A stretch of DNA of 64,000 nt from Jaminaea rosea (Eukaryota; Basidiomycota; Exobasidiomycetes; Microstromatales): contig NW_020289984.1 of NCBI RefSeq assembly GCF_003144245.1, forward strand, positions 434,001 to 498,000. The letters are read 5' to 3'. Of the stretch, positions 49,669 to 55,736 are shown piece after piece. The stretch's first letter is position 1. The number at the start of each line of letters is the position of its first letter. Both the position numbers and the translations under genes were made by a program. The notes beneath the pieces were generated by a model that was given only the letters and a program-made list of their open reading frames with translations, ran no database searches and was not told the DNA's origin.

Positions 49669-51558
49669 CTACTCTCGTGTGACACAGCGCCCAAAGACCT
49701 TGACATGGAGCCAGTCGGCGCCTACTTGAACGCGATTCCTCAGCGAGAAGAGTTTCTGTGCAGGACGGGACGAAAAGAGATGGGTCAGCGAATGGCGGCG
49801 AGAGAAAGGGGAGAAAGCGGAGCGCTCCACCTACTCACGCTGAAATACACTCCTCTCCAAGCAACGAATGTCGCCACACCACCAATGGAGACCTCTCCGT
49901 TCATGAACGGCAGATCCGCAATCGCCTTGTCCCCACCAATGTACGCCAGCGCACCCGCGTGCGAGTAGTGGAAGGGCTTGAGCTTCTCGGCCTTCTTGAG
50001 CATCTTTTGGTAGGTGGGCACCTCATCCCACCTGCCCTCCTTCTGCGCCAGCGCAACCGCCTCATTAAGATCATCAATGCGAGCCATCTGGTTGAAGCGC
50101 TTGCCCAGCCACTTGCCCTGCTGGCTCGCCGATTGAGCGGTAGCCGCGTACGGGGTAGCCGTGCAATCGCCGAGGGCGAAGATGGTCTCCTCCATCCCCT
50201 TGAGACGCATATGGTCGTCCACCTCCAGTCCTCGTCGGTTCTTCTGGCTCTCAGGCAGCTGAGCCATCAAGTCCCTCGTGATCTCCCTCTGCCCATTGCC
50301 CGCCGCCATGACGAACAGGCCGTACGGCATCTTGTCCATCGTCCCATCTGGCTTCTGGACAGTCACGTGCGTCTCGTCGACGTCCTTGAGCATGTGCTTG
50401 GTGAGGACAGAGATCTCCTGCTGGGAGAACTCGTGCTCCGTGTACTCGACGAGCTTCTTGCTGAACATGGGCAAAATGCTCGGCAGGCCCTCGACGAGAG
50501 TGACTTTCACCCTATTTGCGATCTCCGGATACCACTTGCTCAGATCCTCGACCACAAAGTCGCGCAACTCTGCTGCGAACTCTACACCGGTGGGACCACC
50601 GCCGACGACGACTGTGTGGAGCAGACGATCCACCTCAGACTGCGGCTGGCCGGTAATGCAGGCAGACTCGACACAGTCCATGAGACGGTTGCGAATCTTC
50701 TCGGCATCGCGGAGCTCCTTGAGGAAACATCCGTGCTTGCGGACACCGTCGATGCCGAAGGTCTGGGGAGCCGTTCCAACCGAGTAGACGAGGTAGTCAA
50801 AGGGTATCGTGACCGTTCCGAGGGAGCCGTGGATTCTGTGTGGCCAAGCAGGGTGGGTCAGCTTTTGTCCTTCGGAAACTACGCTTCATGCTTCTCCGCC
50901 GCACGCACTCAGACTTGTCCTCAAAGGTGACCGTCTTGGCCTTGACATCGACATGGGTAGCCTCAGCTTCGAGACACTGTACCTCCCTAGCACCGAAGCG
51001 AACCGTCTGCCTAGTAGGCTGAGCGATGGATCGCCCATTGATAGTCCCTACTGTAACAGAGGGAAGCAGCGGCGTGAATAGGAAGTAGTCGGCAGGCGAG
51101 ATGACGATGACATTGTAGTTCCTCGTGTCAATGTTCTGCAGCATCGACGTGGCCGCCCATCCCGAGCCGAGGACGACGATCGTCTTGAGCTTGGGATCTT
51201 GCGGCAGCTGGTCGGGCGGGTTGTTCGCCTCGTACGCATAGTAGCCAAAGGCTCCCAATGACAATGCAGTAGTGGCGTAGATGCCTCGCTTGACCCGCGT
51301 GAAGAAGCCACGACGGGGGCGACCGCCGCCATTGCTGCCGCCGCTGGAGGAGGAGGACGATGAAGAGGAAGGGTTGACAGAAGCTACACCTTGAGCTCCA
51401 GCGACAGCACCGCTGCTGACGGTAGGGGCGGCCCTCCATCGAGACGAGAAGAACAAGGTTCGCGACTGCGAGGCAGAGCCAACCGCGGGCGCGGCGATAA
51501 GGCTGCGCCTGACGAGGGCCGTCGACGATGCCGTCGATCGAGCAGCGGCCATAGCCAT
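49669..51558 (-). CDS. NDE1: Rotenone-insensitive type II NADH dehydrogenase
   Basis: Single-subunit mitochondrial NADH:ubiquinone oxidoreductase that passes electrons to quinone without proton pumping. Exons on the minus strand are 51558-50909, 50835-49839 and 49755-49669, giving 577 residues. The N-terminus (MAMAAARSTASSTALVRRSL) is a presequence. A membrane anchor near GIYATTALSLGAFGYYAY suggests an inner-membrane, space-facing (external) enzyme. FAD site: TIVVLGSGWAATSML. NADH site: TVVVGGGPTGVEFAAEL. The C-terminal GVYFSKLFSLRNR...WLHVKVFGRCVTRE is typical and depends on the short last exon. No EF-hand insert is present. The first donor was set at GTGCGT to keep phase. Confidence 0.94.
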
Positions 51559-52245: not shown

Positions 52246-54724
52246 CTACGACATCTCCTCGCGCCAGCTCTTGAGCATTCCCGCACCCCCAGCCAACAGG
52301 GCAGTCCAAGCCTCCAGCCCCTCCTTTTCACTGTTCGGCAACAGCAGCTCCGCACCAGCAAAGACAGCCTCACAAGCAGCCACGCGCGTCTCGAGCAGCA
52401 TTTGACTGATCGAGTGGCGTACCCGCTGGAAGCACGACTCGGCGGAGTCGAGGTCTTGCATGGCTGTTTCGACCGGGGATGAGGAGGGGCGACTGGAGGT
52501 GTGGCGATGTAGACGCAATTGTGGGGGATGAAGGTGAGAGAGGTGCGGTGAGGAGGAAATGAGGGGTTGAGGAGCACCCGTGCGGGGATGTGCTGACGCA
52601 AGTGCTGCTGCTGCTTGTTGGGCATCTGCTAGCTTATCGGTGAGGAGGAGTGATTGACGATGAATGCGCCCCAGCGCTCTTCTGCATCTCTTGCGAGCCA
52701 TGGACAGGGTGTAGAGTTGAAGGAGCAGGGCGACGAGCTCGAAGCTGCGCAGAAAGGGGCATTCAGGTCAGCGCCAATCGTACGCTTGCTCGCACCGCCG
52801 CTGCTCACCCTAGCGCTAATCGCTCGAGACCTCTCCTTTGTCTTGCTCTCAATGCTTTGTGGCCCGCTTCGGTGTATCCTGCTCTCGCTATTCTCCAGAC
52901 GACGCTCGATCCGCCAAGGAAAGCGGCCACGTCCGCCGCTTCGCCACAGACCGTGAGGACCTCGACTGCTCCCTCAAGTCGATGGTGCCAAAGTGTCGGT
53001 TCTTGTATCGCATCGACCTCCAGCTGATTGAAACCGTCAGGGCCTGACCGTGACGTGTGTCCCGCTTCTGCTTGCTTGCCCTTCACTTCTTCTCCCTGGT
53101 CACTCTTTCCCTGCTCCGCAATCCTTCCAGCTGCCTCCATGATCCACTTTGAGAGGAGCAGCACCTTCCTCAGATTCTCCGCCGCTTCCCCACCGATATA
53201 TACCCGCCTAAGCGTCTCGCGCCTGAGGTAGCGAGGGAAGAGGAGGAAGAGAACGTGAGGAACAGGCCAGAGACCCCAGAAGCGCGGGCGGCGCACTGAG
53301 CCAAAGGAGCGGTGCGTCAGGAGGGCGAGACCGTGAATGAGTTGCTGGATCGAGCAAGCGGGAGTGACCGAACGGGGCAAGTCAGTACGGGAGCATGAGA
53401 TGAAGCTGTCGTCATTCGCTACCCTCGTGGGACTCACCAGTGCTCGATCACGGCCCTCGGCCGACCTTAGCAGGAGAATGACCGCTTCTCTGGCTCGTGC
53501 TCCGTTGAAACCGCTGCCACTGCCGCTTCCTCTCACCTGATTGCCGTCGGCCGCTGAATTACCGTGCTCGCTACGTTGAGAGGATGAGGAAGATCGGACA
53601 AAGGTCGTGACAGCAGGCGAGGTGGCGCCGTATGCTGGGGGCAGGTCATGCTCCTCAGCACGCTCTCGCTCAAGGTGACCTTGAGTCTGAGTAGAATACG
53701 AAGCCTCGACGCCCGGAGCCATATCGTCTCTCTCAGCTTGACGTCGAATAGCCTCACGCTCCGCCTCCTCATGCTGCAGTGCTACCTTGGCCGCTTCGAG
53801 CTCCTCGGGGTCAAGCTGAGAGACACCGGCGCGCGTAGAGGCCCGGCCTGCGAGGGCAGCGGAACCTGCACCAGTGAGGGTGTCCGCTGAAGAGCCGGAG
53901 CCACCTACGGTGCGGCCGCCTAGAGAGGAGGTGGCCGTTGCAGCGCCACTTGCGACACTTCCCACACTCTCCGCATAGTTGCTTGACTGCTGCAGGGCTG
54001 CTACGCCGCCTGCGGACGGGCGAGCTTGGTAGGCGGCTGTGCGTGCAAGGTAGGGATTGAGGAGCGAGGGGTGTGAGGGTGCATACATTCAACCCATCTC
54101 GCCTCACCCAACTCACGCAGCTGCTCTCCGTGTTGCCCTCCCTTGGCCAGGTTGCGTACCTCCTCAACTGCATCTCGAAACGAGTTTCCGCCGCCCTCCA
54201 AAAACCAGATCTTGAGGATGCCCTTGTTGACGCCAGGTCCCTCGTTCGGCAGGTTGCCGCCGGGCACGGGCAGCACTCCGGCCTCGTAGTAAGGTGCGGC
54301 GAAGACGGGAATCATGTAGCGACAGTCGACGAGATTGCTCAGAGGGACATTGAGGGAGCGCAGATGCTCGGATGCCCTGTCGTTCTCTGCCGGAGCGGGC
54401 AGCATTGGTTGGCGAAGGAAGACGACTCGCTGGTTTGTCACGAAGGCGGTGCCCTTTGCTTCCCATCTGAGCGCAATTCAGTGGTGTCAGCAGGCCGCAA
54501 GATATCTGACCGCTTGTCTCGATCACTCACTTGGCCTTCTTGTCCTTAAAGTCGAGGCTGTGAGGGCGGAGTGGCGGCTGGTGAGCATGCATATATGCAC
54601 TCGCACACGCGCTGCCTCAGACTCACCTCATCTGGCACTTGATGACGGTGTGCCAGATCTTCTCCTCTGGCAAGGGCACAGGCTTGCTGCCATCAGCGTC
54701 TACCATTGCCCAGTTGAGAGCCAT
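52246..54724 (-). CDS. Predicted fusion: WBP2/GRAM-like protein plus PEX11-like peroxin
   Basis: Exons on the minus strand are 54724-54627, 54557-54531, 54466-54108, 54036-53438, 53344-52809 and 52744-52246; every phase matches and gives 705 residues. Residues 1 to about 165 are a WBP2/GRAM-type domain (SLDFKDKKAKWEAKGTAFVTNQRVVFL, NLVDCRYMIPVFAAPYYEAGV). A low-complexity region with the WW ligand PPAY (294-297) follows, as in WBP2. Residues about 341-705 resemble PEX11, gamma/C type: AVILLLRSAEGRDRAL, helix LRKVLLLSKWIMEAAGRI, LERLALGFELVALLLQLYTLSMARKRCRRAL and a C-terminal hydrophobic segment. PEX11 proteins elongate and divide peroxisomes. No stop or obvious ATG lies between the two parts. 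Two separate genes with an unrecognised start is the alternative. Confidence 0.7.
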
Positions 54725-54950: not shown

Positions 54951-55736
54951 ATGGTCAACGACTCATTGCGGCACTCTACGTCGCACGACTCCCTCTTCTC
55001 AGCATCGAGCGATGACGGGCAGCAAGCCAGCGGCAAAGTGGCAGCCCTGACACCGCCTCCCATCTCAGGCCTTCTCTTCCTACCCGATCTCCTGTCGTCA
55101 GCAACAGAGCAGCGTCTCATCTCCCAGCTGGACAGCTGTTACCCGCTGGATCGATCAACAGCAGACACATCCAACCAATTCATGCTCTTTGGACGCGCTA
55201 AAGAAGGGCACGACGGCAGCGCCTCATCAGGCTTACCAGGCTGGGCAGACGAGCTCGTGTGTGAGCTCGAGTGCCTCCTGGAGGGCAAGCTTGACGAGAA
55301 GACGATGAGCCTTTTCTTCCCTCTGCGATCGCAAAGGTCTTCTGCACTGCAGCCTTGTCGCTCACGCCAGCTTATCATCAACCATTATCTCCCCTCGCAA
55401 GGCATTACGCCACACATCGACTTGCCCGCCCGTTTTGGTGACGGTATCCTGCTCTGCTCGCTGCGAAGTGGGATTGCGATGGACTTCCAGCGAAAAGACG
55501 AGAAGTTCACTCTTTGGTTGCCGCCGCGTAGTGTGGTGATCCTGTCAGGAGAGGCAAGGTGGGACTGGGAGCATGGGATCGCGGCAAGGGAAGGGGACTG
55601 GGTTGCGTGCGATGAAGGGCCTGAGTGGGTTGCGAGGCAGACTAGAACGAGCGTGACCATCCGTTGGCTTCTACCAGGAGCAGACGTGGTCGGTAGCATG
55701 GAAATTGACGATGACGATGAAGGTTCAATAGCATAG
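54951..55736 (+). CDS. AlkB-like 2-oxoglutarate/Fe(II) dioxygenase
   Basis: Single-exon gene of 261 residues. AlkB homologues oxidatively demethylate DNA, RNA or protein using Fe(II) and 2-oxoglutarate. The iron ligands are His155 and Asp157 (GITPHIDLPARFGD) and a distal His near 209 (GEARWDWEHGI). The 2-oxoglutarate-binding Arg lies in TRTSVTIRWL. The preceding LIINHYLPSQG is the usual nucleotide-recognition-side strand. The acidic C-terminal tail (MEIDDDDEGS) is not conserved. The pattern is nearest to the ALKBH6/7/8-like branch, but the substrate cannot be decided. It is convergent with the coiled-coil gene at only 31 bp between stops. Confidence 0.88.
   Translation: MVNDSLRHSTSHDSLFSASSDDGQQASGKVAALTPPPISGLLFLPDLLSSATEQRLISQLDSCYPLDRSTADTSNQFMLFGRAKEGHDGSASSGLPGWADELVCELECLLEGKLDEKTMSLFFPLRSQRSSALQPCRSRQLIINHYLPSQGITPHIDLPARFGDGILLCSLRSGIAMDFQRKDEKFTLWLPPRSVVILSGEARWDWEHGIAAREGDWVACDEGPEWVARQTRTSVTIRWLLPGADVVGSMEIDDDDEGSIA

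Follow-up and report, generated by a model that had tools for sequence, protein, structure and literature searches.

The known WBP2 and WBP2-like proteins are stand-alone proteins of about 200-300 amino acids which combine a GRAM domain with PPxY ligands for WW domains, and the natural WW partners in fungi are the Rsp5-type ligases. PEX11 proteins act in shaping and dividing peroxisomal membranes. Where two proteins occur fused, the pair often marks partners which cooperate elsewhere as separate chains. WBP2 is described as a partner of WW-domain proteins (PMC5518133), and the Pex11B protein of Penicillium is reported to reside in the endoplasmic reticulum (ER), with its overproduction leading to clustering of peroxisomes (PMC3334907).

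The window analysed here is a stretch of 64,000 nucleotides from the basidiomycete Jaminaea rosea (contig NW_020289984.1, positions 434,001 to 498,000), and all coordinates refer to it. Its reverse strand holds a coding path (52246-54724) in which a WBP2-like sequence is followed in the same reading frame by a sequence reminiscent of PEX11. The explanation tentatively preferred, at a confidence just short of even, is a single fungal nuclear gene for a two-part protein of 702 residues, composed of a WBP2-like adaptor and a divergent PEX11-like membrane module.

Coding path and WBP2-like front half

The path runs on the reverse strand from an ATG at 54724 to a stop at 52246. It consists of six exons which, when spliced in one frame, give 702 residues with a terminal stop and none internally. 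Exon 1 (54627-54724, 98 bases) encodes the putative WBP2-like N-terminus starting with MALNWAMVDADGSKPVPLPEE, and a six-frame search of the genome, judged on its best candidates, returned no second copy of the WBP2-like half. The reconstructed exon 2 (54531-54557) has 27 bases, and exon 3 (54117-54466, 350 bases) carries what appears to be the remainder of a GRAM/PH-like domain, including GTAFVTNQRVVFL and PVFAAPYYEAGVLPV. Exon 4 (53438-54036), which is open over its 599 bases, comprises a low-complexity linker, the PPAY motif, a Ser/Gly linker and residues 1-19 of a PEX11-like start motif, ending in LLRSAEGRDRAL. Exon 5 (52809-53344, 536 bases) encodes a region which is helical in a low-confidence model and contains the amphipathic-helix-like segment LRKVLLLSKWIMEAAGRIA, while exon 6 (52246-52744, 499 bases) contributes the stretch FELVALLLQLYTLSM, hydrophobic by hydropathy, and a C-terminal GAGMLKSW.

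The five introns measure 69, 64, 80, 93 and 64 bases; all have GTGAG(T/C) donors, AG acceptors and a CTNAC site, the stricter CTRAC being present in three. In shuffled versions of introns 1 to 5, CTNAC occurs at frequencies of 0.23, 0.19, 0.31, 0.36 and 0.14, respectively. A codon-use score derived from 17 long frames in other parts of the window (9,952 codons) places the gene frame at the top of the six frames in every exon, with scores of 0.10-0.91 bits per codon. One training frame (49704-50927, forward strand) lies opposite a real gene, and the outcome is the same when it is omitted or when the 8 longest frames only are used. The Ser/Gly-rich portions of the exon 4 linker score near zero, and the evidence for the linker therefore lies in its openness to a greater extent than in its codons; exon 4 was matched in openness by 17 of 5000 mononucleotide shuffles. 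Retention of intron 3 (54001-54116, reverse strand) would yield a GRAM-only product with a stop at 54001.

The WBP2-like nature of the putative front half is supported by a colinear plant alignment and by two WW-ligand-like motifs. An Arabidopsis WBP2-like protein, the single reference used and a provisional sequence, aligns colinearly with both sequences starting from residue 44, an alignment equalled in 4 of 2000 shuffles. The first motif, LPAY (residues 158-161, 54029-54120, reverse strand), is formed by the splice of intron 3 (54116-54037), and the second, PPAY (residues 291-294, 53630-53641, reverse strand), follows the GRAM-like domain in the splice reconstruction. The Pfam GRAM profile (PF02893, cut-off 23.6 bits) gives the front half 12.4 bits and a trimmed piece of it 14.5 bits, but its silence says little, because the Arabidopsis control also stays below the cut-off at 14.9 bits. 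A search of the genome with the same profile lists four places, the window not being among them; one of the matches, on contig C17 with 27.9 bits, lies at a locus whose open frames, viewed by eye, resemble a TBC-domain protein. Weak protein matches within the genome on contig C9 (E 0.017) and at two places on contig C1 (C1:3063480, E 0.046; C1:1817992, E 0.875) were set aside. The six-exon uninterrupted path proposed in the initial annotation is thus borne out as a 702-residue frame with consensus introns, and its assignment of a GRAM-type domain with PPAY to the first half holds as a WBP2-like one, with the Pfam GRAM score below threshold.

Resemblance of the back half to PEX11

The back half is probably PEX11-like, judging by a motif at its start. 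This putative N-terminal motif (residues 340-368, 53315-53494, reverse strand) is split by intron 4 (53437-53345) into AREAVILLLRSAEGRDRAL and QLIHGLALLT and contains the sequence EGRDR (residues 352-356), which lies in the same exon as PPAY. Its profile score of 19.2 was equalled in none of 5000 shuffles of the end and in 1 of 2000 shuffles of the whole half. Among 57,807 positions in six-frame translations of the window (frames of at least 60 amino acids) none scored as well, the best other position reaching 10.2. The profile was built from six fragments, five of them provisional sequences, and when true start fragments were left out they scored 30.4 to 45.0, so that the motif falls below all six. 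A 60-residue N-terminal scan missed the left-out protein encoded on contig C2 because its motif sits further in. Since the start motif straddles the junction, it also supports the splice of intron 4.

Three further PEX11 motifs are less distinct. The best match to the second amphipathic helix (SRK.FRLGKF type) lies at residue 77 of the half, with 574 of 2000 shuffles as good and a weak profile whose left-out true members score from 26.4 down to -19.0. The best match to the middle membrane-helix segment lies at 192 and was equalled in 241 of 2000 shuffles, left-out true members ranging from 22.2 to -22.2. The hydrophobic C-terminal pattern G..SS..G...W is best placed at 344 of 366 with a score of 5.8, which 366 of 2000 shuffles equalled, against 16.6-26.4 for left-out true members. 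The three matches follow one another in the order of PEX11 proteins, and none is significant.

The Pfam PEX11 profile (PF05648, cut-off 23.8 bits) has no match in the whole protein, in the back half or in pieces of it. A genome-wide search with this profile, up to an E value of 10, lists one gene on contig C16 and another on contig C2, and not the window. Both of these PEX11 genes exceed the cut-off: taken exon by exon, the C16 gene reaches 42.5 and 29.2 bits, and the C2 gene scores 31.9 bits in one exon and 52.9 bits when approximately spliced, with a match running nearly end to end.

Local pairwise comparisons are suggestive for two of the seven PEX11 references, namely yeast, equalled in 3 of 300 shuffles, and Arabidopsis E, equalled in 7 of 300. 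The comparisons are negative for Arabidopsis B (163 of 300), the C2 paralog (229 of 300), the C16 paralog (60 of 300), Arabidopsis A (970 of 1000) and human gamma, a provisional sequence (673 of 1000). In a control with six true PEX11 references, 14 of the 15 pairs were equalled in at most 9 of 300 shuffles. A global alignment with yeast PEX11 did not place EGRDR opposite AGREK. Comparison by hhalign is borderline: in two sets of 100 shuffles, 2 and 1 did equally well, and the probabilities were 1.1 and 1.5 percent. Single-sequence AlphaFold models of individual exons, with pLDDT values of 46.5 and 38.8, are too poor to use. Sequence searches of the PDB returned weak matches of unrelated names only (best E 0.47 and 2.2), and NCBIfam profiles gave no match. 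Relatives of the front half and of exon 5 were not found among viral or bacterial and archaeal contigs, which is expected because the gene is eukaryotic.

The half is called PEX11-like rather than a PEX11 because only the start motif is significant, the other tests being weak or negative. The gamma-type PEX11 proposed in the initial annotation therefore survives in part: its GRDR pattern stands out from shuffled sequence, whereas the gamma subtype is not supported by score and the Pfam profile does not recognise the half. The same results may also be explained by one continuous gene in which the back half forms a helical membrane module with no relation to PEX11, its likeness to GRDR being due to convergence or chance. 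This would agree with the silence of the Pfam profile, with the five pairwise comparisons that are no better than shuffles and with the three motifs that do not reach significance; it is nevertheless considered unlikely, as the start motif stands far above background at the correct end of the domain and the weaker motifs come in the correct order.

One gene or two

It is quite probable that one continuous gene spans both halves. The question of one gene or two turns on exon 4, because PPAY and EGRDR share this exon in a single frame. Splices and starts that would separate the halves were enumerated, using consensus-like introns of 45-250 bases. From an ATG within 54130-53438 the second half can be reached by two direct and 14 spliced open routes, five of the latter losing PPAY. 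Two splices from the same donor end the WBP2 part beyond PPAY: an intron of 47 bases (53536-53490, reverse strand; CAG/GTGAGA...GCCAG) closes a WBP2-only protein at 338 amino acids, and one of 131 bases (53536-53406) does so at 332. The claim of the initial annotation that neither a stop nor a clear start separates the halves accordingly stands for the stop in the gene frame and has exceptions for the start, for which these routes offer alternatives.

Two overlapping genes on the same strand can thus be written, mostly by way of the 47-base intron: the WBP2-like gene would end at 338 or 332 amino acids, and a PEX11-like gene would start inside it at 53722, 53649 or 53772. The donor at 53536 is a good one, and the bases around the three starts count in favour of this reading. 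Exon 4 contains a single in-frame ATG, at 53722 (GACGATATGG), flanked by G at -3 and +4; it lies upstream of PPAY, and a start at this position would therefore give the WBP2 part no stop. The ATGs at 53772 and 53649 are out of frame, both have A at -3, and both reach the second half through the 47-base intron. The +1 frame in which they lie is also open across 53772-53537, but its codon use is below that of the gene frame both there (-0.02 against 0.18 bits per codon) and across 53649-53537 (-0.11 against 0.09); in two sliding windows the frames are about equal (0.17 against 0.14 and 0.05 against 0.07). The 47-base candidate moreover falls below the length range of the five introns of the gene (64-93 bases), both candidates lack the CTNAC site that all five contain, and the promoter and 3' end of the two genes would be forced into coding sequence. 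On this balance two overlapping genes are improbable; if they were real, the locus would be an example of an annotation decided by one short, unlikely intron.

A polycistronic transcript of the kind found in Agaricomycetes was also considered and rejected, because in those cases stops lie between the coding frames and the gene frame here has none; the Agaricomycetes transcripts are described as having multiple stops in all frames between the coding frames (PMC4503453). An assembly or sequencing error that fused two genes through loss of a stop or a frame shift is very improbable, as the gene frame scores highest on either side of the linker and no change of frame is required.

The donor at 53536 can also be joined to the acceptor at 53344 (53536 to 53345, reverse strand), which skips 33 residues in frame, removes GRDR and might give rise to an isoform without the PEX11-like start.

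Proposed role and comparison with known systems

Several recognisable genes surround the locus. A 2OG-Fe(II) oxygenase (PF13532, 38.5 bits; 54951-55736, forward strand) is divergent from the fusion gene, and as the two ATGs are about 226 bases apart, the genes may share a promoter. An alternative NADH dehydrogenase of the NDH2 type, with at least two exons, lies at 49785 to about 51558 on the reverse strand, its Pfam domains Pyr_redox_2 and NDH2_C being found in the frame 49785-50885, and from 56457 onward the forward strand carries the beginning of a gene for a proteasome alpha subunit (Proteasome_A_N, 42.2 bits).

Under the preferred reading of a single two-part protein, the front half would consist of a GRAM/PH-like domain followed by LPAY and PPAY motifs able to bind WW-domain proteins, and the back half of a divergent membrane module of PEX11-like character, which opens with GRD(K/R) and contains hydrophobic helices. 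The back half may seat the protein in the peroxisomal membrane or, as with Penicillium Pex11B, in the ER. The front half may in turn touch a phosphoinositide-bearing membrane and recruit a WW-domain protein, for example a ubiquitin ligase of the Rsp5/NEDD4 type, whereby WW signalling or ubiquitination would be coupled to the membrane on which PEX11 proteins operate. Somewhat more doubtful, though still a serious possibility, is that the protein is a true WBP2-PEX11 fusion, in which a membrane-shaping module of the PEX11 type is equipped with a WW-ligand tail and with a GRAM domain of its own that binds phosphoinositides. A single polypeptide could then hold a peroxisome, or the ER from which peroxisomes form, against a second membrane and recruit an Rsp5-type ligase there. 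A real fusion would raise the question of whether WBP2-like adaptors and PEX11 proteins cooperate in ordinary fungi, and it would offer a way to connect WW-domain ubiquitin ligases directly with the membranes of peroxisomes. If confirmed by transcripts, the product would be an unusual protein uniting two separate jobs.

Among the titles and abstract openings listed for PEX11, WBP2, GRAM and Rsp5, none described a WBP2-PEX11 fusion, a scope that does not prove its absence. Like Pex11B of Penicillium chrysogenum, the protein would be a third Pex11-type member beside two others, a likeness in member count; no front domain is mentioned for Pex11B in the passages considered (PMC3334907). With the PEX11 family (PF05648; fungal Pex11, Pex11B and Pex11C) the back half shares the N-terminal GRD(K/R), the hydrophobic stretches and, weakly and short of significance, a C-terminal GM..W, but it differs in falling below Pfam detection, in its low-complexity inserts and in being preceded by a WBP2-like half. 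The front half resembles WBP2 and WBP2-like proteins in its N-terminal start, its GRAM-like pattern, its LPAY and PPAY motifs and its colinearity with the provisional plant sequence; unlike those proteins, however, the protein encoded in the window continues for about 400 amino acids past PPAY.
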